A stretch of DNA of 64,000 nt, taken from NCBI RefSeq assembly GCF_000189755.2, contig NZ_KI912183.1:1924257-1988256 (forward strand), written 5' to 3'. Source of the stretch: Desulfotomaculum nigrificans DSM 574 (lineage in GTDB: Bacteria > Bacillota > Desulfotomaculia > Desulfotomaculales > Desulfotomaculaceae). Made by a program: the position numbers and the translations under genes. Below the pieces are notes generated by a model, which was given only the letters and a program-made list of their open reading frames with translations, made no database searches and was not told the origin of the DNA. Positions 16,085-64,000 of this stretch are shown in pieces (position 1 is the stretch's first letter; each line of letters starts with the position of its first letter).

Positions 16085-16108
16085 AGTTAGGTTTGCAGTT
16101 AGGTTTGC
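16085..16108. repeat. Perfect tandem duplication of 12 bases
   Basis: AGTTAGGTTTGC occurs twice head to tail at 16085-16096 and 16097-16108, adjoining the dispersed repeat copy A. Confidence 0.8.
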
Positions 16109-16158
16109 TCATCTAGCCGCAGAGACTTCTGTTATCCGCCGTTTACCCGCGATCTCAC
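16103..16158 (-). repeat. Dispersed repeat, copy A (56 bp)
   Basis: About 80% identical to 33955-34010, sharing the blocks ATCTAGCCGCAG, ACTTCTGTTAT and ACCCGCGATCTCAC. Both copies sit directly after the stop of a minus-strand gene and in the same orientation relative to it. The nature of the element is unknown. Confidence 0.6.
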
Positions 16159-33944: not shown

Positions 33945-33954
33945 TTCTAGTTTT

Positions 33955-34010
33955 GTTTGCTTATCTAGCCGCAGGTACTTCTGTTATTCACAGCTCACCC
34001 GCGATCTCAC
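33955..34010 (-). repeat. Dispersed repeat, copy B (56 bp)
   Basis: Second copy of the element at 16103-16158, same orientation, overlapping the last codon of the terC gene. See copy A for the shared blocks. Confidence 0.6.
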
Positions 34011-51501: not shown

Positions 51502-53196
51502 CTACTTATGGACTTGGTCCATTTCTTCATCGCTGACATCAAAAACAGTATTGGTGGCGGGGTTAGGAGTTTCATAGAAATATTCCGGCAGCCGGTCGTC
51601 ATACTTGGTGAAGCCGGCTTGCTGGTTAAACTCTCGCTCCCACTTAACTGTATCTGCCGCCATTTTAAACAGCGTTTCCGGGGTAAAATCCGTCCCTAAC
51701 TGGGCATTAACCAGCTGGCACAACACCTCGGGAGAGGCTCCTATGCCTGCTGAGGTGAACAGGCACAGCCCCAAAGCATCATAGACAGGTACAGTGTACT
51801 GGGATTTAGCAGATAACTCCACCTGCCCTTGGGCCGAATGATGGTCAACCTGGTTCCTGACGGTGTTACCGGCGGTATGATCCGCCCCCATAGGAGAAGT
51901 GGCATAGGTCACGCCCACCCCTTTGATGGCCCGCGGGTCATAGGCAGCCATAGCCTGACCTTTTACCGCCGGAACATTGATAACCCCAAGCACTTTACCG
52001 GCAATTTGGGCACCCATACCTAAGACCCGGCCCAGGATGGTTCCCTTGCCGATTTCATGCACCAAATTAATAGCCCCCTGTTTATCACCAAAGGGGATTA
52101 CTCCACCGGCCATCGCCACCCCCAGGGCAGCACCTGTTTCAATGGTATCCAGTCCGTAATCGTTACACAAATAGTTAAGTCGGGCAATGGCATCCAAGTC
52201 ATGAATGTCCAGGTTGGAACCCATCAGGGCAATGGTTTCGTATTCCAGGGGTGATACAATTTCCTTCCCTGCGGCATCTACATAAACATTAGAACAACCA
52301 ATTAAACAACCCGGCATACAGTTGTGCCTGGTCTTTCCCTGACGTGACAGGATGGTTTCCCTCAGGGCCTCCCCACTGATTTTTTCTGCTCCTTCAAAAT
52401 GGCCTGTGGTAAAGTTACGGGTGGGTAACCCGCCTATGGCATTGGTAACCTGCACCATAGCGGCGGTTCCATAGTCTGTATAAGTTTTTATGACCGGGGA
52501 CTCTTTTAAGATCCGGCTGTATTGCTGCAGGGCTTCTTTATATTGCTCGGGATTGGCCGGTTCCCCCGCTCCGCTGTTGCTATCATCAATAATTACGGCC
52601 TTGATCCCCTTGGCCCCCATGACAGCCCCCAGGCCGCCACGCCCGCTGTAACGACTGGGCACACCATTGGTATCGGTATTGGCGATGCCGGCAGCCGCCA
52701 GTTTCTTTTCCCCGGCCGGACCGATGCAAGAAACAGCCACCTTGTCCCCAAATTGCTGTCTTAAAAGGGCTGCTGTTTGGTACACACCCAGCCCCCAATA
52801 TTCTCCGGCGGGAATCAGCTCTGCTCCATCGGCGGTGATTTTTAACAGATACTTTTCTTCGTTCCGGGGAATTTCTTCAATTATAACGGCCTTATACCCC
52901 AAGCGGCCCAGTTTTAGGCCCACCACTCCCCCGCCGTTACTTTCTTTAATACCTCCGGTGAGCGGGCTTTTCCCGCCAATAGAAATTCTGCCGGAACTTG
53001 GCACTTTGCTCCCCCCCAGTAAGCCGGGGGCAAAAATTAACTTGTTATGCCGGCCCAGGGGTTCACAAGCAGGTTTTACTTCGTCTAACAGAAGTCTGGC
53101 AATCAGGGCCCGGCCGCCAAGAAATTGGTATTCTTTCCTGGTTGGTTCCGCTTTCACAGTTAGTTCCTTCATATTGACACGTAAGATTTTGTTCAT
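51502..53196 (-). CDS. Aldehyde ferredoxin oxidoreductase (tungsten-pterin family)
   Basis: Oxidises aldehydes to acids, or the reverse, with ferredoxin as partner; tungstopterin and a [4Fe-4S] cluster. 564 residues. The N-terminal domain has LGGRALIARLLLDEV (about 26-40) and SGRISIGGKSPLTGGIKESN (about 67-86). The cluster cysteines begin in NCMPGCLIGCSNV (about 292-304), and one more Cys is expected in LGLCLFTSAG (about 483). The substrate is uncertain. It lies 45 bases after the FAH-family gene on the same strand. Confidence 0.93.
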   Translation of the reverse strand: MNKILRVNMKELTVKAEPTRKEYQFLGGRALIARLLLDEVKPACEPLGRHNKLIFAPGLLGGSKVPSSGRISIGGKSPLTGGIKESNGGGVVGLKLGRLGYKAVIIEEIPRNEEKYLLKITADGAELIPAGEYWGLGVYQTAALLRQQFGDKVAVSCIGPAGEKKLAAAGIANTDTNGVPSRYSGRGGLGAVMGAKGIKAVIIDDSNSGAGEPANPEQYKEALQQYSRILKESPVIKTYTDYGTAAMVQVTNAIGGLPTRNFTTGHFEGAEKISGEALRETILSRQGKTRHNCMPGCLIGCSNVYVDAAGKEIVSPLEYETIALMGSNLDIHDLDAIARLNYLCNDYGLDTIETGAALGVAMAGGVIPFGDKQGAINLVHEIGKGTILGRVLGMGAQIAGKVLGVINVPAVKGQAMAAYDPRAIKGVGVTYATSPMGADHTAGNTVRNQVDHHSAQGQVELSAKSQYTVPVYDALGLCLFTSAGIGASPEVLCQLVNAQLGTDFTPETLFKMAADTVKWEREFNQQAGFTKYDDRLPEYFYETPNPATNTVFDVSDEEMDQVHK

Positions 53197-53241
53197 ATTA
53201 AGCCCCCAATCAAATTAACCGTGGATTGGTTTATTGGCAAC

Positions 53242-54126
53242 TTACTGCAATTTATTAATCAGAGTACCAATATTTTCGATGGAAATTACAACTTCATCCC
53301 CTGATTTTAACCATTCTTGTTGTGATTCAGGATATCCCATGATAACCCCGTCCGGAGTACCGGTGAAGATGATATCACCGGGTTTTAGCGTCATATGGTG
53401 AGAAACATAACTGATAATGGTGGCACAATTAAAGATCATGTCTCTGGTGTTAGCCGATTGCCGCAATACGCCGTTAACTTTACACTTAATATCTAAGTTT
53501 TGGGGATCCGGCAGTTCATCGGCGGTTACAATGTACGGACCCACCGGGGCAAACTGGTCACAGGTTTTACCCAGCAACCATTGTCCGGTACGGAATTGCA
53601 GATCCCGGGCAGACAAATCATTGCCCACAGTATAGCCAAAGACATAGGACAAGGCTTCCGCCGGGCTTACATTTTGGGCCGTTTTACCAATTACCACCAC
53701 CAGTTCGGCCTCATAGTCAAACTTTTGGGCAGCAACCGGCAGGTGAACCACATCTTTGTGTCCGGCCAGAGCATTGTTAAATTTACTAAACAAAATGGGT
53801 ACCTTAGGAACGTCCATCTTAGATTCTGCTGCATGGTTAATATAATTAAGGCCAACGCAGATAATTTTTTCCGGATTACTGACACAGGGTGCATATTCAA
53901 TGGCGTCTTCATTAAGAAAGTACTTGGCTTCTCCCATACCTTGAACCTTATCCACCAGAATCTCCAGCGCCCGCAGGGCATCTTCTCCGCTTTGGATAAC
54001 TTTATCTATAGTTATGGGTGTTTGTTGCTTTAATTCTGCAGCAGCCTTTGCCACATCCAAAACCCCATTTATTGTCTTGACACCCAGGCGTAATTGATCA
54101 GCCACTTTAAACTGTAGTAATTTCAT
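53242..54126 (-). CDS. Fumarylacetoacetate hydrolase (FAH) family protein
   Basis: 294-residue cytosolic metal-dependent hydrolase or decarboxylase. The C-terminal FAH fold shows KIICVGLNYINHAAE (about 88-102), PILFSKFNNALAGH (about 110), DYEAELVVVIGK (metal-binding Glu pair region, about 140-151), GYTVGNDLSARDLQ (about 166-179), PGDIIFTGTPDGV (about 251-263). The family covers acylpyruvate hydrolases and oxaloacetate decarboxylases, and the substrate is unknown. Probably co-transcribed with the oxidoreductase gene. Confidence 0.9.
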   Translation of the reverse strand: MKLLQFKVADQLRLGVKTINGVLDVAKAAAELKQQTPITIDKVIQSGEDALRALEILVDKVQGMGEAKYFLNEDAIEYAPCVSNPEKIICVGLNYINHAAESKMDVPKVPILFSKFNNALAGHKDVVHLPVAAQKFDYEAELVVVIGKTAQNVSPAEALSYVFGYTVGNDLSARDLQFRTGQWLLGKTCDQFAPVGPYIVTADELPDPQNLDIKCKVNGVLRQSANTRDMIFNCATIISYVSHHMTLKPGDIIFTGTPDGVIMGYPESQQEWLKSGDEVVISIENIGTLINKLQ

Positions 54127-54236
54127 GGTTCACTTCTCCTTTGGTCGTTACTAAAACATTATACTTCTAAACTAGGGCTTTTATCAATTTTAAAAACAAA
54201 TTATGATAGGGGCGGAGAAAGCCGGCATACAACAAA

Positions 54237-54265
54237 AATCGAGGGTCGGAAACTGACCCTCGATT
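54237..54265 (-). terminator. Terminator of pdxS
   Basis: AATCGAGGGTC / GACCCTCGATT perfect 11-bp stem followed on the minus strand by TTTGTTG. Confidence 0.85.
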
Positions 54266-54338
54266 CATACTGCTAATTTTTTAACGGCCTGCTCAATTCC
54301 GGTTTTGCCCCTGCTGCCTGTTATTCCCATATATTATA

Positions 54339-55223
54339 CTACCAACCACGCTCTTGCATTCTGTCAGTGGCAGCGATGGTGCTGATTTCCAGGCCGGGCA
54401 TGGCTTCCCCCAGATCCCGGGAAATTTCCGCCAGGATTTGGGCGTCCATGTAGTGGGTGGTGGCAGCCACAATGGCTTTAGCCCGGGCAGCCGGGTCAGC
54501 AGACTTAAAAATGCCGGAACCCACAAAAACACCGTCACAGCCCAGCTGCATCATTAGCGCGGCATCGGCCGGAGTGGCAATACCGCCGGCCGCAAAATTA
54601 ACCACCGGCAGGCGGCCCAGCTCGGCCACCTGCAGTACCAGTTCATAGGGAGCCTGCATTTCCTTGGCCGCAGTCATTAGTTCTTCCTTGGGCAGATTTT
54701 GCAGTCTGCGAATTTCGCTCATTACTTTGCGCATGTGGCGAACTGCTTCCACCACATTGCCGGTACCCGGTTCACCCTTGGTTCTAATCATGGCTGCCCC
54801 TTCCCCAATGCGGCGCAGGGCCTCCCCCAAGCTGCGGGCCCCACAAACAAAGGGTACGGTGAATTCATGCTTATTAATATGAAACTGATCATCTGCCGGT
54901 GTCAGCACTTCACTTTCATCAATATAATCAACACCCAGGGCCTGCAGAATTTGGGCCTCCACGAAATGCCCGATACGGGCCTTGGCCATTACCGGAATGG
55001 TGACGGCATCTTGAATTCTTTTGATAATGGTGGGGTCAGCCATCCGGGCCACCCCGCCGGCTGCCCTGATATCCGCCGGCACCCGCTCCAGGGCCATGAC
55101 TGCACAGGCCCCTGCTGCCTCCGCAATTTTAGCCTGTTCCGGAGTAGTAACATCCATAATTACTCCTCCCTTAAGCATCTCAGCCAGACCCTTTTTTAAA
55201 GTCCATGTTCCTTTTTCTACCAC
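54339..55223 (-). CDS. pdxS: Pyridoxal 5'-phosphate synthase subunit PdxS
   Basis: Makes PLP from ribose-5-phosphate, glyceraldehyde-3-phosphate and ammonia supplied by the glutaminase PdxT. Exactly 294 residues from the chosen GTG (GGAGG 8 bases upstream), the normal family length. The raw frame is 26 codons longer. Seen: [22 protein letters not shown] (Asp in VIMDV about 24), [14 protein letters not shown] (Lys about 81), [21 protein letters not shown] (Lys about 116-149 region) and [20 protein letters not shown] terminator follows it and no pdxT is adjacent, unlike most Firmicutes. Confidence 0.96.
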
Positions 55224-55273
55224 AGTAAATTCCTCCAAAATTTTGATTATTTCCCCTGCAAAGTCAGGATAAA

Positions 55274-55294
55274 GGCCCTGCTTTAAGCAGAGCC
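55274..55294 (-). terminator. Terminator of the dicarboxylate symporter gene
   Basis: GGCTCTGCTT / AGCAGGGCC stem (one mismatch) followed on the minus strand by TTTATCC. Confidence 0.65.
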
Positions 55295-55307
55295 TTGGCA
55301 AACACTA

Positions 55308-56552
55308 TTAAGAAGCAACAGAGGCTTTTTCAACAGTCATATTAGCATTGTGCTTAAATTCGCCTTCCCAGTTAGCTATTACTACAGTGGCCAGAGAGTT
55401 ACCAATTACGTTCAGGGCAGTACGTCCCATATCTACGAAGAAATCTACTGCCATCAGCAGTGCCACACCTTCCGGGGGCAAACCCATTTCGGTGGCAGTG
55501 GCTAACAGTACCACCAGCACTGCGGAGGGAACGCCGGCCAAACCTTTGGTCATTACCATCAGCATAAAGATAATGGTAAAAATCTGAGCATTACTTAATG
55601 GCACATTAAAGGCATGGGATATAAAGATTACGGCTACACTGGCATAAATACTAGCACCGTCCAGGTTGAATGAATAACCAGTGGGCAGCACGAAAGAAGT
55701 AATGGATCGGTTAGCGCCAAATTTTTCCAAACGGTCAACCAGCAAGGGCAGAGCCACTTCAGAACTACGGGTGGTGAAGGAGAGCAGTATCAAATCCCAA
55801 GTGTTTTTCATCAGAGATCTGTAAGGAACTTTAAAGATTAAGGCAATGATTGGCATTAGAACTAACGCCACTACGAGGAAGGACAGGTAAGCCACCAGTA
55901 CAAACTGGCCCAGAGCCATTAAGCTCTTCACGCCGTACTTGGCCACACTGAAGGCCACAAAACCAAATACACCAATGGGAGCAAAGGAAACGGCATACCC
56001 AATTACTTTAAACATAGCCTGGGTCCAGGATTCAAAGAGGTGAATTACGGGCTTGCCCTTTTCACCGATGGCCACCAGGGCCAGACCAACAAAGATACCA
56101 AAGAAGATTACCGGCAGCAGCTTGCCGTCAGCCATGGACTGGATAATGTTTTTAGGAATGATTTCTAACAGAAAATTCTGCATGTCGATACCCTTTTGGA
56201 GCTTATCCAAACCGGCGGTATCAGCAGCCATATGACCAAAGCCGGCACCTACATTGGTGATCTTAGCTACTAAAACACCAATTACGATGATGATTGTTGT
56301 CACAACCTCAAAATAAACCAGGGTTTTAACAGCCACCCGGCCCAGTTTTTTGGTGTCGTGCATCCCGGCAACACCAAGCACAATCAACGGGAACACCAGG
56401 GGTACAATAACCATTTGAATCATACGGATAAATGCTTTACCAAGGATCTCTAACTTTAGACCCAGAGATTGACTTACATAACCTACGATGAGACCGAGGA
56501 TTAACCCAATAATAACTTTAAGCCCCAGACTCATTTTCTTTTTCTCAGCCAT
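55308..56552 (-). CDS. Dicarboxylate/amino acid:cation symporter (DAACS, GltP type)
   Basis: 414-residue sodium- or proton-coupled importer of glutamate, aspartate or C4-dicarboxylates. Eight helices plus re-entrant loops. Signature parts are LLSFTTRSSEVALPLLVDRLE (serine-rich loop, about 269-288), VLPTGYSFNLDGASIYAS (about 302-319) and AVDFFVDMGRTALNVIGNS (about 372-390). I choose the ATG at 56552 because GAAGGAGGAAGG precedes it. The frame extends 28 codons more. It lies downstream of the threonine-synthase-like operon, separated by a hairpin, and may carry its substrate. Confidence 0.92.
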   Translation of the reverse strand: MAEKKKMSLGLKVIIGLILGLIVGYVSQSLGLKLEILGKAFIRMIQMVIVPLVFPLIVLGVAGMHDTKKLGRVAVKTLVYFEVVTTIIIVIGVLVAKITNVGAGFGHMAADTAGLDKLQKGIDMQNFLLEIIPKNIIQSMADGKLLPVIFFGIFVGLALVAIGEKGKPVIHLFESWTQAMFKVIGYAVSFAPIGVFGFVAFSVAKYGVKSLMALGQFVLVAYLSFLVVALVLMPIIALIFKVPYRSLMKNTWDLILLSFTTRSSEVALPLLVDRLEKFGANRSITSFVLPTGYSFNLDGASIYASVAVIFISHAFNVPLSNAQIFTIIFMLMVMTKGLAGVPSAVLVVLLATATEMGLPPEGVALLMAVDFFVDMGRTALNVIGNSLATVVIANWEGEFKHNANMTVEKASVAS

Positions 56553-56663
56553 TACACCTTCCTCCTTCTCAACGTCATGCTCGGATAGAATTGTTGAATA
56601 ACTGACATTGATTACTGGCAAATTTTCTAATATCATAAATATTGGGTTATTAATTTTAATGGC

Positions 56664-56692
56664 GGCCCGGCAGGTTGTTTACTTGCCAGGCC
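56664..56692. terminator. Hairpin after the threonine-synthase-like gene
   Basis: GGCC-c-GGCA / TGCC-a-GGCC stem with one internal mismatch. The T-run is on the plus side, so termination on the minus strand is uncertain. Confidence 0.45.
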
Positions 56693-56704
56693 TTTCTTTT
56701 TGGT

Positions 56705-57913
56705 TTAGGCTTCCGGAATATCATCTTCCGGCTGCAGTAAAGGGACATTTACCTTAACGGTTTCAGGATATTTCAAACCGGTACCGGTGTTAAGCATAAC
56801 TACTTTTTCATCGGCCTTGAGCCAACCTTGCTCTCTCAGTTTCTGAGCCGCGCTGTACAGGGAAGCACCTTCCGGGCAAACGAAGGCGCCTTCTTTAGCG
56901 GCCAGGGTAGCCTGAGCTTTTAACAGATCTTCATCACTGATGGCAATAGCACAGCCATTGGTTTTGTAAACAGCATCTAATACCAGGAAGTCACCCAGGG
57001 CTTTGGGTACGGTGATACCAAAGGCACAGGTATGAGCGTTGTTCCAAAATTCGGACTCAGTTTTCTTCTCGTTGTATGCCTTAACAATGGGGGCGCATCC
57101 TTCTGCTTGGACAGCTACCAAGCGGGGCATTTTTTCACCGATCCACCCGATGGCTTGCAGTTCCCGCAGGGCTTTGTAAATACCGATGATACCTACACCG
57201 CCACCGGTGGGATAAAGGATGACATCGGGAACCTCCCAGTTAAACTGCTCAGCAATTTCCAGCCCCATGGTCTTTTTACCTTCAATCCGGTAGGGCTCTT
57301 TTAAGGTGGAAACATCGAACCAACCGTACTTTTTAACAGCCCGGCCTACGATTTTTCCGGCGTCACTGATTAAACCGTCCACCAGGTAGAGGTCGGCACC
57401 GGCAATAGCACACTCGTTACGGGTAATTTCCGGGGCATCCTTGGGCATCACAATAACCGATTTAATACCGGCTCTGGCACCATAGGTGGCCCAGGCAGCA
57501 CCGGCGTTACCGTTGGTGGGCATAGCCAGCACCTTGATACCAAGCTCTTTCGCCCGGGATACACCCACTGTAGCACCCCTGGATTTAAAGGTTCCGGAAG
57601 GAATGATGCCTTCGTCCTTCAGGTAAAGATTGTTTAAACCAATCTCCGGACCGGCTGCTTCCATTTTAATAATAGGGGTCATACCTTCACCCAGGGAAAC
57701 CATGTTCTTTCTATCCCGCAGGGGAAGCAGTTCCCAGTAACGCCACAGGCTTGGTTCGCGATCTTTTAAATCTTCTTTGCGAAAGTTTTCCTTTACACGT
57801 TCCAAATCGTAGCGAACCAGTAAAGGGCCGCCACACTCACACAGTTGATGAACTTCTTCACTGTTGTAGTGTTTGCCGCATTTGGCGCATTCCAGATGTG
57901 TTACGTAGCTCAT
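56705..57913 (-). CDS. Threonine synthase-like PLP enzyme
   Basis: 402-residue PLP-dependent enzyme of fold type II. An N-terminal zinc-ribbon-like part (CAKCGKHYNSEEVHQLCECGG, cysteines about 9, 12, 27 and 29) precedes the catalytic domain with the PLP lysine in SGTFKSRGATVG (about 106-117), GNAGAAWATYGARAG, and the phosphate loop YPTGGGVGIIG (about 237-247). ThrC turns phosphohomoserine into threonine. However, it sits in an operon with RidA and a DauR-type regulator and no other threonine gene, so a catabolic lyase or dehydratase role is also possible. Confidence 0.85.
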   Translation of the reverse strand: MSYVTHLECAKCGKHYNSEEVHQLCECGGPLLVRYDLERVKENFRKEDLKDREPSLWRYWELLPLRDRKNMVSLGEGMTPIIKMEAAGPEIGLNNLYLKDEGIIPSGTFKSRGATVGVSRAKELGIKVLAMPTNGNAGAAWATYGARAGIKSVIVMPKDAPEITRNECAIAGADLYLVDGLISDAGKIVGRAVKKYGWFDVSTLKEPYRIEGKKTMGLEIAEQFNWEVPDVILYPTGGGVGIIGIYKALRELQAIGWIGEKMPRLVAVQAEGCAPIVKAYNEKKTESEFWNNAHTCAFGITVPKALGDFLVLDAVYKTNGCAIAISDEDLLKAQATLAAKEGAFVCPEGASLYSAAQKLREQGWLKADEKVVMLNTGTGLKYPETVKVNVPLLQPEDDIPEA

Positions 57914-57936
57914 ATTTTATCTCTCCTATCAGTAAA

Positions 57937-58320
57937 CTATTTAACTAAAACGATAGCCTCAATTTCCACCAGCACGTTCTTGGGTAAGCAGGAAACTTCC
58001 ACGCAAGCCCGAGCAGGTGCTTCTTCCTTGAAGAACTCCCCGTAAGTCTCATTAACTTTAGCAAACTGGGCCATGTCCTTTACGAAAACAGTGGTTTTAA
58101 CAACATCTTTAAGTGTGGCGCCGGCTGCTTCGCAAATGGCCTGAAGATTTTTGATGCATTGTTGGGTTTGAGCTTGCACACCTCCTTCCACTACATTACC
58201 GGTGGCAGGGTCAATGGGGATTTGACCTGAGATAAACATTAAATTGCCCACTTTAACTGCCTGGGAATATGGTCCGATGGCTGCAGGAGCCTTATCGGTA
58301 CTGATGATAACCTTTTCCAT
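57937..58320 (-). CDS. ridA: RidA-family enamine/imine deaminase
   Basis: Trimeric cytosolic enzyme that hydrolyses reactive enamines released by PLP enzymes. 127 residues, normal length. Seen: [27 protein letters not shown] (core IGPYSQAV about 16-23), [15 protein letters not shown] (about 83-97) and the catalytic Arg in [13 protein letters not shown] (about 104-116). It lies 23 bases upstream of the threonine-synthase-like gene, which suits it as a partner for that enzyme's intermediate. Confidence 0.95.
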
Positions 58321-58341
58321 TTATTGATGCCTCCTGGTTAG

Positions 58342-59016
58342 TTAAATTATGTTATGAACCCGGTTAGACCGGTCCTCTTCCAGATAGTTGTAGATGGTGT
58401 ACCGGGACACTCCCAACATTACGGCGACTTTATCCACCGCTCCCTTAATCATGAACACACCTTTCAGGTCAAGTTCACGCACCACTTGAATTTTATCCTC
58501 TTTTTGCATCATAGCCACCGGTATGCCTATGTTGTTAATTACCTGGTTAATCATGGCATCTAATACTTCGGTGATATCTGAGGCAAAAAGCTCACTTTCG
58601 TTAGTTGTCTGAAACTCTTCACCAAAGGAGGTAAATTCCTCTATATGGCCTTTGTGAATTAGCAATTCTGTAATATCGTAATTAATACATAAACAGCCAA
58701 TTATTTTTCCATCACTGTCCCGGGTAAAGATAGTTGAAGATTTTAGAAGACGGCCATCCTTGGTCACGTTTTTGTAGCCAATCAGGTCACGACACTCATG
58801 GCCATATTTGCGGATGTTTTCTAAAACAACATTGGTAATGGGCGCACCCTTTTTACGATTAGTGATGCTTCCAGCCACATATATCAGTGATGTTTCTGGA
58901 TTGCGCAAATCATGAACAGCTACCTCACAGTACTTACCAAAGGTTTCCGCAATACCTTTGGCTATGGGGATAAGGCCCTGTAGTTTGGGGTGGATATCTG
59001 CCAAGCCCTCGCTCAT
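58342..59016 (-). CDS. DauR/YheO-type PAS-HTH transcriptional regulator
   Basis: 224 residues. The N-terminal YheO-like PAS domain (about 20-125) contains CEVAVHDLRNPETSLIYVAG (about 33-52) and GCLCINYDIT (about 107). The C-terminal HTH of the DauR type includes VDKVAVMLGVSRYTIYNYLEE (about 192-212). Family members regulate amino acid catabolism (DauR: D-arginine). It is the first gene of the operon with RidA and the threonine-synthase-like enzyme. The palindromes at 59105-59117 and 59150-59221 upstream are possible binding sites. Confidence 0.88.
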   Translation of the reverse strand: MSEGLADIHPKLQGLIPIAKGIAETFGKYCEVAVHDLRNPETSLIYVAGSITNRKKGAPITNVVLENIRKYGHECRDLIGYKNVTKDGRLLKSSTIFTRDSDGKIIGCLCINYDITELLIHKGHIEEFTSFGEEFQTTNESELFASDITEVLDAMINQVINNIGIPVAMMQKEDKIQVVRELDLKGVFMIKGAVDKVAVMLGVSRYTIYNYLEEDRSNRVHNII

Positions 59017-59362
59017 TCTGTATCCATCACCTCCCGCGGGAAATAATCTCTAATAAGTGTCATTCAACATTCGATAATGTTTTCTTATGTGATTCTTTTT
59101 TGTCTTGTAAATTACAATTCTTCGAACTTCAACAAATTCCTTCTGTTCTCTTAAAATTTTTTTGTATCTATTACAAAAAAATTTTAAGTAATCAAGATGA
59201 TTTCTTACAAAAAAATTTTAAAACCGCTACGCATGCAACCCCGGCCATTTCCAACTTCAGGAACAGCTTAAATTCGTTGCCTGGATAAATACATAACAAA
59301 AGGGTTTTTATTAACCAGGTAGAAATATTGTCAAAAATAATATATTTTTGAGGTTTTATTGC
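59017..59362. other. AT-rich divergent spacer between the DauR operon and the Wadjet locus
   Basis: About 345 bases, no gene. It contains AACATT-cgat-AATGTT (59066-59081), TTGTAA-a-TTACAA (59105-59117) and the long inverted/direct repeat set at 59150-59221. It must hold both divergent promoters. Confidence 0.6.
59150..59221. repeat. Perfect 17-bp inverted repeat plus a third arm copy
   Basis: CTTAAAATTTTTTTGTA (59150-59166), 5-base loop, TACAAAAAAATTTTAAG (59172-59188), then TACAAAAAAATTTTAA again at 59206-59221, 34 bases on, about three helical turns. It lies about 140 bases before jetA and 134 bases before the DauR start. Confidence 0.75.
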
Positions 59363-60850
59363 ATGCCTAACAACTTATTGAAACCAATTGTTGAATTAAG
59401 TTATTTAAACGCTCAAAATGTTGACCGTTATCGTTGTATTATGAGATGCTTTTACGAACACCACCAGCGACTACAATATTGGCTGCGGCCGGAAGAAGTA
59501 TACAGAGGCGTCTTATCTTACGGGCTGCTGGAAAATTATACAATGGAACAATGCCAGCAGGACCTCAATCAGTTAGTGGAGTGGAAAAACCTCGTTCCCC
59601 AACACGATGGCGGCCGCTCTACCACTGTGGAAGAATACTTGCGTAAAAAATTTCGTTATATGATGACACCTTACTCCGTGGAAATTGAACGACTGGTAGT
59701 AAACCTGGAGAACATCCGGGGCTACGGTGGCTCGCTGGAACCTTCCCTTTTCGAGAGCATCGCCTTGTCACTGCAGAAAATGAAAGAACTCCCCCCGGAA
59801 ATTACTCCCCAAGAAGCCCTGGCCCTGTGGGAAAATATTTACGAAACCTTTACCAAGCTCACGGAAAACGCTGCCGACTATATTGCCAGCCTGCAGAGCA
59901 GCAAAACCGAAGAACTAATGCAAACGGAAGCCTTTTTAGCCTACAAAAATTCTGTTACCGGATACTTACAGGGTTTTGTCCAGGGCCTGCAGCGCCATGC
60001 CTATCGCATTGAAGGACTCCTCCCCCTGTTCCAGCCGGAATTCCTCAGGGATTTCTTTCATAAAGTACGGGATGCTCTGGCCTCTCGCCCCCAATTGGAT
60101 GAGCCGGTAACCCCGGAAGAATACATGCACCGCTTGCAGACCCAGTGGCACAGCCTGAACCGTTGGTTTCTTGGTGAACCCGGCGAAAAAAGTGACGTTT
60201 ATTATTTGGAGCAAACCACCAAGGATACCATTGCCCGCATTGTGCGGGCCGCCCTGCGGATTCAGGAAAGACGCCGTTCCGGCATCAGCCGGCGGCGGGA
60301 ACTGGACTACCTGGGACAGTGGTTTTTCTCCCTGACTTCCATCGAGGAGGCCCACCGACTGGCAGCCTACGCCTTTGGCCTGTACCGCTGCCGCCACTTC
60401 CAGGGAGAGGATGATAAGGATACCGAATCTCCCGATATCTCCATGTGGCAGGCCGGCCCCAACATTCGCGGTTTGCGTTCCCGCAGCCGGAAAAAAGGCC
60501 GTAGCTCCGGCCCGGACCCGGTGAAAAGCCAGCACACCCGACAACAAAGGGCTAGGGCAGAATACCTGGCTCAGCAGCAGCGGCAGGCAGAATTGCTGCA
60601 AAAATTTCTGGCCCAGGGGACTGTAACCATTTCCGACTTAGACACTGTCCCCGCTGCCACCAGGCAAGTGCTGCTTAGCTGGATCGGCCTGTGTCTGGCC
60701 AATAAGTCCAGGCAGATCCGCACACCGGACGGCATCGAAATCAGCCTCCTACTGCCGGATCACCAACAGCGCACCATTTTGCACTGTGAAGATGGGGAGC
60801 TGGATATGCCCGACTATACCCTTTACTTCCGCCCAACCGGCGACCAATAA
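59363..60850 (+). CDS. jetA: Wadjet protein JetA, kleisin-like (TIGR02677/DUF2397)
   Basis: MukF-like kleisin subunit of a plasmid-restricting SMC complex. 495 residues from the ATG at 59363 (TTGAGG upstream at 9 bases). A TTG five codons earlier is the frame edge. The family N-terminus is clear: LSYLNAQNVDRYRCIMRCFYEHHQRLQYWL (core NVDRYRCIMRCFYEHHQRLQ about 19-38), then a winged-helix region with TMEQCQQDLNQLVEWKNL (about 72-89). Long helices follow, with a basic, Gln-rich linker (about 380-420), and a C-terminal winged-helix-like part. It is the first gene of jetABC, 24 bases before jetB. Confidence 0.9.
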   Translation: MPNNLLKPIVELSYLNAQNVDRYRCIMRCFYEHHQRLQYWLRPEEVYRGVLSYGLLENYTMEQCQQDLNQLVEWKNLVPQHDGGRSTTVEEYLRKKFRYMMTPYSVEIERLVVNLENIRGYGGSLEPSLFESIALSLQKMKELPPEITPQEALALWENIYETFTKLTENAADYIASLQSSKTEELMQTEAFLAYKNSVTGYLQGFVQGLQRHAYRIEGLLPLFQPEFLRDFFHKVRDALASRPQLDEPVTPEEYMHRLQTQWHSLNRWFLGEPGEKSDVYYLEQTTKDTIARIVRAALRIQERRRSGISRRRELDYLGQWFFSLTSIEEAHRLAAYAFGLYRCRHFQGEDDKDTESPDISMWQAGPNIRGLRSRSRKKGRSSGPDPVKSQHTRQQRARAEYLAQQQRQAELLQKFLAQGTVTISDLDTVPAATRQVLLSWIGLCLANKSRQIRTPDGIEISLLLPDHQQRTILHCEDGELDMPDYTLYFRPTGDQ

Positions 60851-60874
60851 CCAGCAGTAAAGAGAGGGAAGCAC

Positions 60875-62053
60875 ATGGCCCGTATAGCCCGGAATAACCA
60901 GGAAGAAATAAAGAATTGTTTTATCGCCTTGCTCAACCGCCCCTGGGTGACCAAGGCGGATGACCCGGAATTATACCAGAGCATTCGCAGTCATTACCAG
61001 GAGCTCAGGGACTGGTTTCAAGAATATTGCGGTTTCAGCCTGCTGTTAACCAGGCAACTGGCCAGGCTGGAGAAATTTCCCGGCCAGGCCCATGCCTGGA
61101 TGGGATTGGAATTATTCAGTGACCCCTTGGACTACGCCCTTTTTACCTATTGTCTCTGGTACCTGGAAGGTAAGAATGAAACAGACCAATTTTTGCTCAC
61201 CGAAATGATCGAAGAAATCAAAAACCATTTGATCGGCTCCCAGGTATCGCTGGATTTTACCATGTACCACCACCGTCAGTCCATGTATCGGGCCCTCAAA
61301 CAGTTAAAGGCACTTAAGGTACTGGTGGCGGTGGACGGGGATGAAGCGGAATGGGCCCGGGTAGGTAACGACAAAAACGTTCTCTACGAGTGCTCCCCTT
61401 TGTCCCGCTATGTACTCCGGCATTTTCCGCAGGATTTGACCACCTATCAAACTCCGGCATCCCTGGGGGAATTAGCTTATCCCGATGACCAGGAAGGACA
61501 AGTTCGCCGACGCCGGCACAGGGTTTACCGCAGGCTGCTGCAGGAGCCGGTGGTGCACGACTGGGAATGGAGCCAGGATGAACGCTATTACGTACTGACC
61601 CAGCGGCATACCATCCTGGAACACCTGTCCGCTCGCTTTGGTCTGGAAGGCCAGCGTTACCGGGAAGGACTGATCTTTTTTTACCCCGACCACTCGGCAG
61701 AAATAGAACTTTTCCCCACCGCCAAAAACATCTCCGATCTGGTTTTACTGCTGGCAGGAGAAATCCGTCGCCTGCTGGACCAGTCGGATACCGGCATTTA
61801 TACGGATGAACGCGGGCGTATCCCGCTGACCCTGGCGGAGTTGGAGGGACTGCTGCTGCGCCTGAGGGAAAGACACAAATCACTATGGAGCCAGCAATTG
61901 CGTCAAGCCAAGAGCAATGAACTGGCCCAGGAAATACTGGCGCACTTAACCGATTGGGGTCTGGCTACGGTAAATTCAGAGCAAATAATTTTACTTAACC
62001 CGGCCCTGGGCCGTTGGAACGGAAATTATCTAACAGATGAGGATGAGGAATGA
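60875..62053 (+). CDS. jetB: Wadjet protein JetB, KITE/MukE-like (TIGR02678/DUF2398)
   Basis: 392-residue protein that in Wadjet complexes bridges the kleisin and the SMC heads. Family features: ARNNQEEIKNCFIALLNRPWV (core EEIKNCFIALLNRPW about 8-22), HYQELRDWFQEYCGFSLLL (about 41-59), DYALFTYCLWYLEG (about 86-99), DFTMYHHRQSMYRALKQLKALKVL (about 127-150, winged helix), and repeated winged-helix segments. AGAGGG precedes the ATG. Its stop codon overlaps the jetC start (ATGA). Confidence 0.9.
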   Translation: MARIARNNQEEIKNCFIALLNRPWVTKADDPELYQSIRSHYQELRDWFQEYCGFSLLLTRQLARLEKFPGQAHAWMGLELFSDPLDYALFTYCLWYLEGKNETDQFLLTEMIEEIKNHLIGSQVSLDFTMYHHRQSMYRALKQLKALKVLVAVDGDEAEWARVGNDKNVLYECSPLSRYVLRHFPQDLTTYQTPASLGELAYPDDQEGQVRRRRHRVYRRLLQEPVVHDWEWSQDERYYVLTQRHTILEHLSARFGLEGQRYREGLIFFYPDHSAEIELFPTAKNISDLVLLLAGEIRRLLDQSDTGIYTDERGRIPLTLAELEGLLLRLRERHKSLWSQQLRQAKSNELAQEILAHLTDWGLATVNSEQIILLNPALGRWNGNYLTDEDEE

Positions 62054-64000
62054 TGCGCAACCGCTGGCAAATGAATCTGGCCGGTATTTTTAATTTCTGG
62101 TATTACACCGATGAAGTTCAGTTTAAGTTAAGCGATGGCCGCCTGGTCCTGCGGGGGGCCAATGGTTCCGGCAAATCCGTAACCATGCAAAGTTTTTTGC
62201 CGCTGGTGCTGGACGGCAATAAACGCCCTTCCCGTCTGGATCCCTTTGGTTCCAAGGATCGCAAGATCGACTATTACCTGCTGCTGGAGCCGGATAGCGG
62301 TATTCAAGACCGGATTGGTTATCTTTATCTGGAATTTTATCACCCGGAACAACAGCGCTACCTTACTATTGGTATTGGGCTGCGGGCCCGCCGCAATGCC
62401 AACACCGGTTTTTGGGGCTTTGCCATCACGGATAACCGTCGCATCGGCAAAGATATTCTGCTTTATGAAAGGGACTACAGCCAAGGACAAGAGCAAAAGA
62501 TCCCTCTCACCCGTTCCCAGTTGGAGGATGTCATCGGCGAAGGCGGACAAGTGGTCACCGAGCAAGGTAAATATATGGAAATGGTCAACAAACTGCTCTT
62601 TGGCTACGGCGATTTACAATCCTTCCAGGAGCTGCTGGACTTGCTGATTCAACTTCGCAGTCCAAAACTGTCCAAGGATTTCAAACCCACCACCATTTAT
62701 GAAATATTAAGTAACGCCCTGCCTCCTCTGCAGGATGATGAACTGCGCCCGCTGTCGGAAGTCATGGAGGATATGGACCAGATTAACGACCGCCTGGAGG
62801 AGGTCTGCCTGCACCGCCGGGAAGCAGAAAAACTCCAGCAGGTGTACAACCGCTACAATAAATACCTGCTCTACCACCAGTCCAGCCAACTGCTGCAGGC
62901 CAAAAGGCAGTGGGACAACCAGCAGAGCAGCACCCAGGAACTGGAGGCTAAACTGCAAGAGATCTCCCGCTCTTTACAGGAACGAAACGAGCGACTAACA
63001 GAACAATCCACCAAACTCCTGGAGGTTAATGCCCGGCACCAAGTGCTTGCTGCCTCGGAGGTGCTGGAAAAACGGCATGAACTAAACCGGCTGCGGGAGG
63101 AAAAAGAGAGAACCAACCGGCAGGCCGAACGGCTGGCCAAAAGCCTGATGTACTGGCAAGGTAAACAAAAGGAATACCGGCGGGATCAAGAGAAGTACAC
63201 CGCCGAAGCGGCGGAATATACCACCAGGCAGCAGGCGACCCTGGCTGATTTAGAAGACATTGCCCGGGAATTTGATTTTTCCCGGCATGATGTGTACCAC
63301 CGCCAGTGGGATCGGGATATGCCCCGGGAATTCAATCAGTGGCACAACTGGCAGCAGGATTTGTCCGAACAGGAGCGGCAAATTAACCAAGCGCTGGAAA
63401 TAGCCCGTCGGGTGGATCACAAAAAGTATGAGCGGGATCTGGCGGAGCGGGAAGTGGGTAATGCCCGTCAGCGGCGGGATACCGCTGAAGAATCCTACCG
63501 CTTTGAAGAAGAAAACTGCGACCTGGTGCAAAAATCCTACCAAGAACAAATCTTTGCCTGGCGCAAAAATTTACTGGAACTTCATCTTAGCGATGAGGAA
63601 CTACAAAAAACTCTGCACCGCCTCTCCCTGTTCCCGGAAGTCTCCTACGAATCCATCAAGGAACCAATGCTGGAGGCCTTCGACCACCGTTATTTGGATT
63701 TGCAAAAACAAAAGGTGGCACTGGAGCAACAAAGAGACCGACACCAGGAAGAACAGAATCAACTCCGGGCAGCCTGGCAGGAATGGAAAAACCATAAGGA
63801 CCCGGAACCGCCCCGTTCCGCCGCCCGGGAGCTGTCCCGCCGCCAGCGCGGCGAAGGTGCCCCCCTCTATGCACTATGCGAGTTTCGCGAAGGGGTTAGC
63901 GAAGAACTTAAAGCCTCCCTGGAAGCGGCCCTGCAGCAAAGCGGGTTACTGGATGCCTGGGTCAGCCCCCAGGGACTGGGTATCCTGGGGACTAATGAAG
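62050..64000 (+). CDS. jetC: Wadjet protein JetC, SMC/MukB-like ATPase (TIGR02680), cut by window edge
   Basis: 650 codons are open to the right edge of an expected 1300-1400. Start ATG-ATG, the first overlapping the jetB stop. The head begins NLAGIFNFWYYTDEVQF, then LRGANGSGKSVTMQSFLPLV (Walker A GANGSGKS, about residues 37-44) and LDGNKRPSRLDPFGSKDRKI. A long coiled coil starts near residue 235 (EVMEDMDQINDRLEEVCLHRREAEKLQQVY onward, rich in Glu/Gln/Arg) and continues through about 600, with a new folded segment (hinge or neck) beginning near 610 (LYALCEFREGVSEELKASLE). The signature motif and Walker B lie beyond the window, as must jetD. Confidence 0.9.
   Translation, partial: MMRNRWQMNLAGIFNFWYYTDEVQFKLSDGRLVLRGANGSGKSVTMQSFLPLVLDGNKRPSRLDPFGSKDRKIDYYLLLEPDSGIQDRIGYLYLEFYHPEQQRYLTIGIGLRARRNANTGFWGFAITDNRRIGKDILLYERDYSQGQEQKIPLTRSQLEDVIGEGGQVVTEQGKYMEMVNKLLFGYGDLQSFQELLDLLIQLRSPKLSKDFKPTTIYEILSNALPPLQDDELRPLSEVMEDMDQINDRLEEVCLHRREAEKLQQVYNRYNKYLLYHQSSQLLQAKRQWDNQQSSTQELEAKLQEISRSLQERNERLTEQSTKLLEVNARHQVLAASEVLEKRHELNRLREEKERTNRQAERLAKSLMYWQGKQKEYRRDQEKYTAEAAEYTTRQQATLADLEDIAREFDFSRHDVYHRQWDRDMPREFNQWHNWQQDLSEQERQINQALEIARRVDHKKYERDLAEREVGNARQRRDTAEESYRFEEENCDLVQKSYQEQIFAWRKNLLELHLSDEELQKTLHRLSLFPEVSYESIKEPMLEAFDHRYLDLQKQKVALEQQRDRHQEEQNQLRAAWQEWKNHKDPEPPRSAARELSRRQRGEGAPLYALCEFREGVSEELKASLEAALQQSGLLDAWVSPQGLGILGTNE

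Follow-up and report, generated by a model that had tools for sequence, protein, structure and literature searches.

Wadjet systems of type I and type II share one principle, in which an SMC–kleisin–KITE complex is combined with a Toprim nuclease. In studied relatives of both types, JetABC extrudes DNA and JetD cuts it once the whole of a small circle has passed through the motor (PMC10586767, PMC12647877), and the circles are cut independently of their sequence (PMC10586767). The type II system nvJET, from Neobacillus vireti, cuts naked circular DNA (PMC12647877), and its SMC hinge is reported to have lost its channel. Plasmid transfer is curbed by Wadjet in a native Clostridium (PMC12287153).

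The locus described here contains the same subunits and gene families as nvJET, but its sequence has diverged. The type I systems, represented by Pseudomonas aeruginosa JetD (PDB code 7til), Escherichia coli GF4-3, and an operon in one genome of the same genus (G003), share a JetD fold match with the locus but belong to different A, B, and D families, which in G003 are JetA1 (DUF5716), JetB1 (DUF4194), and JetD1. Furthermore, the nuclease MksG (PDB code 8b7f) of the MksBEFG system of Corynebacterium glutamicum was the best fold match to JetD of the locus, at a sequence identity of about 14%. Among the papers searched, none dealt with both Wadjet and Desulfotomaculum.

Gene organization and assignment to type II

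The window, which is the whole stretch of 64,000 nucleotides analysed, comprised bases 1924257–1988256 of a single-contig genome of 3,052,787 bases, and the missing part of jetC and the jetD gene were read from that genome. Window coordinates equal the L002 coordinates plus 57743, and those above 64000 are extrapolated. The right edge of the window almost certainly falls within a complete type II Wadjet operon of four genes (JetABCD), which is apparently intact as judged from its sequence (Table 1).

Table 1. Features of the predicted JetABCD operon in window coordinates
Feature	Position	Strand	Description
jetA, kleisin subunit	59363..60850	+	495 aa from ATG 59363; DUF2397 / TIGR02677 / PADLOC JetA2; 9qe0 chain E
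jetB, KITE subunit	60875..62053	+	392 aa; DUF2398 / TIGR02678 / PADLOC JetB2; 9qe0 chain D
jetC, SMC-type ATPase	62050..64000, on to extrapolated 66135	+	1361 aa; TIGR02680 / PADLOC JetC2; 9qe0 chain A
jetD, Toprim nuclease subunit	outside window, extrapolated 66128-67417 = L002:8385-9674	+	429 aa; DUF3323+DUF2399 / TIGR02679 / PADLOC JetD2
Left part of 8.3-kb segment common to G004 (98.1% identity)	59288..64000	.	segment end = extrapolated 67593

The jetA, jetB, and jetC frames were all present and unbroken within the window, jetC as far as the edge, and beyond it jetC continued to its end with no frameshift. The start codon of jetA was preceded by GAGGT 8 nt upstream, and an alternative in-frame TTG was located at 59348. 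The genes were closely spaced in the order A-B-C-D, with a gap of 24 nt between jetA and jetB, a 4-nt overlap (ATGA) of the jetB stop and the jetC start at 62050–62053, and an 8-bp overlap of jetC and jetD. The ATG of jetD fell within the region of the jetC stop codon (ATGCTTGA), GGAGGA stood just upstream of it, and a second in-frame ATG was found 21 nt further upstream. This spacing suggests that jetABCD is transcribed as a single unit. The preliminary description had recognized three coupled genes for a DUF2397 kleisin, a DUF2398 KITE-like protein, and a TIGR02680 SMC ATPase, had noted their A-B-C order and the ATGA overlap, and had expected jetD past the edge; all of this was borne out, and a DUF3323/DUF2399 jetD was found directly after jetC in the same genome, both genes being complete and open.

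The protein families were identified by matches far above the respective cut-offs for the first three genes. The TIGR scores of JetA, JetB, and JetC were 336 bits (TIGR02677, cut-off 166), 248 bits (TIGR02678, cut-off 125), and 920 bits (TIGR02680, cut-off 463), respectively, and JetD also exceeded its cut-off with 232 bits (TIGR02679, cut-off 196), so that the profile search proposed earlier was positive for all four proteins. In Pfam, whose cut-offs were likewise exceeded, JetA matched DUF2397 with 560 bits and JetB matched DUF2398 with 397 bits, while JetC and JetD matched SbcC_Walker_B and DUF3323+DUF2399, respectively. The type 2 models of PADLOC were the best match for all four proteins with full-length coverage (JetA2, 4.7e-198; JetB2, 3.5e-136; JetC2, 1577 bits; JetD2, 3.3e-126).

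The sequences of three subunits also matched PDB entry 9qe0, which, together with 9qe1, we take to be the structure of nvJET. JetC aligned with chain A (E=5.9e-216) over residues 3–1359 of 1361, and JetA and JetB aligned over nearly their full length with chain E (E=4.7e-95) and chain D (E=1.1e-51), respectively. The type I families (JetA1, JetB1, and JetD1; DUF5716, DUF4194, and DUF3322+DUF2220) gave no match for JetA or JetB, and JetC and JetD matched the type I models weakly; the operon thus lacks the JetA1, JetB1, and JetD1 families that define type I membership. Since all four proteins match the PADLOC type 2 models best and JetA–JetC match 9qe0, the operon is assigned by sequence to type II, and the earlier statement that the subtype could not be fixed is corrected.

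Modelled JetD fold, active-site motifs, and predicted activity

The AlphaFold model of JetD, calculated with a deep alignment of 49 sequences, had a mean pLDDT of 94.4 and superseded an earlier, poor model from 4 sequences (pLDDT 68). Its only strong matches in the PDB were C. glutamicum MksG (8b7f), P. aeruginosa JetD (7til), topoisomerase VI-A, and Spo11. The global TM-scores to the solved JetD and MksG structures were only 0.3–0.4, perhaps because the two JetD domains are oriented at different angles. When the JetD sequence and profile were compared with the PDB sequences, no true match was found, and the predicted link to solved JetD and MksG is made through the modelled fold and the common motifs.

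Among 76 JetD sequences, residues Glu285, Asn286, Gly310, Ser333–Asp337, and Gly340 were invariant and present in this JetD, and Tyr405-Gln406-Glu407 was nearly invariant, with Glu407 in 99% of the sequences. The 49-row JetD alignment agreed on the Toprim residues. The type I JetD of the same genus carried IEN and GDID motifs that aligned with Glu285 and with Asp335 and Asp337, respectively, in an overall match that was weak (E=8.8e-4, probability 23%). Residues Glu236 and Asp279 of MksG are required for DNA cutting (PMC10123090), and we infer that they correspond to Glu285 and Asp335 of JetD. The intact Glu and Asp residues that the check proposed earlier required of JetD were present as Glu285, Asp335, and Asp337.

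In JetC, the Walker A motif (residues 36–43), read as an intact GANGSGKS in the preliminary description, was present, and its residues Gly36, Asn38, Lys42, and Ser43 were conserved among 68 JetC sequences. The signature SGGEKA (residues 1247–1252) and the Walker B and catalytic residues Asp1281-Glu1282 were likewise conserved in these sequences and present here. A decayed or silent copy is extremely improbable, as the frames were open and the start sites, overlaps, and active-site motifs were intact, and as the twin operon of another species described below was equally intact; the one point in its favour, an indirect one, is that JetD is the fastest-changing of the subunits.

By analogy with the studied relatives, the operon most likely extrudes and cuts small circular DNA. 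JetC dimers, the JetA kleisin, and the JetB KITE subunit would form an SMC motor that extrudes DNA loops driven by ATP, and the motor would stall once a whole small circle had been reeled in. The stalled motor would then bring the JetD Toprim dimer onto the DNA, which would be cut, and the chromosome, being too large to be fully reeled in, would be spared. That the complex of this host extrudes loops, senses and cuts circles, and restricts plasmids is in each case predicted from what those relatives do.

Relatives of the operon and its probable transfer between species

A scan of GTDB genomes gave 80 loci, nearly all from Bacillota, and in 62 of them, including this locus and the copies of the same genus, all four genes were present at good length and nearly always in the order A-B-C-D. 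The closest relatives outside the genus were from Dethiobacter, Thermincola, and a Firmicutes MAG, with JetC identities of 53–57%, followed by Paenibacillus. The anaerobic, spore-forming host suggested previously fits this setting, and relatives of the same, Desulforamulus-like genus matched Desulforamulus putei and ‘uncultured Desulfotomaculum’ records, the JetC and JetD of G005 being identical to those of D. putei. The trees of JetC and JetD placed the operon in the same ten-member clade, which indicates that at least jetC and jetD evolve or travel together. Among the nearest relatives, divergence was greatest in JetD. The Paenibacillus relatives combine similar JetA–JetC with a divergent JetD, which raised the possibility that operons exchange JetD; this was rejected because the two trees agree on the clade, and JetD is simply faster-evolving.

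Within the genus, the closest copy was found in genome G004 (locus L009), where the operon segment was 98.1% identical at the DNA level over 8306 bases (L002:1545-9850). The similarity started about 75 bp before jetA and stopped about 175 bp beyond the end of jetD, shortly after a hairpin, so that the common segment holds the operon alone. The neighbours of the two operons differ, as the G004 copy is accompanied by a McrB-like AAA-ATPase gene and a partner gene upstream and by ssrA downstream. The ssrA-smpB segments of the two genomes were only 83% identical, and for those genes on the left side of the operon that have a counterpart in G004 the identity was about 75%. The operon is not intrinsically slow-changing, because a more distant copy in genome G008 was 76% identical. 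The difference between 98.1% and 83% identity therefore points to a recent transfer, by which two species of the genus probably came to share the operon in nearly the same form. Within the 8.3-kb segment no recombinase gene was found, and terminal repeats were not evident at its ends. Most codon differences between the two copies of jetA–jetC were synonymous, in line with selection for function. For the jetD pair (L002:8385-9674 and L009:15794-17083), in contrast, the 23 amino-acid-changing codon differences slightly outnumbered the 21 synonymous ones, a point against the reading as an intact Wadjet operon.

The distribution of the operon also bears on whether JetABC could be a MukBEF- or MksBEF-like condensin that organizes the chromosome of the host and to which JetD would be accessory. 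JetABC has the same SMC–kleisin–KITE make-up as such condensins, and JetB gave a weak match to MksE below the cut-off. However, jetC is followed by jetD in most of the relatives by far, with all four genes present at 62 loci, and the operon has a patchy distribution within the genus: of the eight other genomes, four had no DUF2399 match, and among those with a match G003 has a type I and G005 a distant type II Wadjet. One would expect a chromosome organizer to belong to the core genome and to be inherited vertically, and this patchiness and the apparent recent transfer count against the condensin reading, which is very unlikely. The type I operon that G003 has instead was located at L012:9308-16061 (-), with transposase-like genes nearby.

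Genomic setting and the ssrA site

The distance from the operon to the 3′ end of ssrA was 0.4–0.5 kb in G004, about 4 kb in G008, and about 9.2 kb in the genome studied here, in which ssrA was located at L002:18889-19238 (-) and the roughly 9 kb between the two was occupied mainly by metabolic genes. Across the genus, the region at the ssrA 3′ end was variable (this locus and L009, L011, and L093–L097). It adjoined large serine recombinases in G001, G003, and G005, and type I restriction and GmrSD genes in G007, which suggests that the ssrA 3′ end is a common integration and defence site in the genus. In one genome, cation-ATPase-like genes were recognized there by eye, and in L096 the end of ssrA recurred as a 14-bp copy beside the recombinase.

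For the operon itself, a flanking duplicate of the ssrA 3′ end was not found in its own locus or in the window, and thus nothing indicates directly that this copy was integrated site-specifically; its placement in the ssrA site is tentative. The wider proposal, that the ssrA 3′ end recurrently serves for integration and defence in the genus and that a compact, recombinase-less type II Wadjet unit of 8.3 kb is passed from species to species into this site or its vicinity, is put forward at slightly less than an even chance.

To the left of the operon, the window (51502–59016, minus strand) contained genes resembling those for aldehyde ferredoxin oxidoreductase, fumarylacetoacetase, PdxS, a dicarboxylate transporter, and threonine synthase, together with RidA and a YheO-type PAS regulator; these genes apparently form an amino-acid breakdown cluster. 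RidA and the YheO-type regulator were checked against Pfam, and the other names came from reading the sequence. A 62-nt repeat with 84% identity was present at 16097–16158 and 33949–34010, perhaps representing the ends of paralogous genes. No Rfam families were found in the window.

The serine-recombinase elements at the ssrA site of the genus would pass through circular forms, and Wadjet cutting of circles is sequence-independent (PMC10586767). These points would fit a Wadjet whose main natural targets are circular elements other than plasmids, for example phage genomes in circular form or integrative elements after excision. What has been published for a native clostridium is, however, an effect on plasmid transfer (PMC12287153), and other circles as the main target are rather unlikely.

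The operon is an ordinary member of a well-described family, to which only the recent interspecies exchange adds anything noteworthy. As a Wadjet acting on plasmids, it would explain plasmid resistance in the genus and would name the gene set to delete when genetic tools are built there. The pair of copies in the two species looks like a clean natural case in which an entire operon for plasmid defence has recently passed between species.
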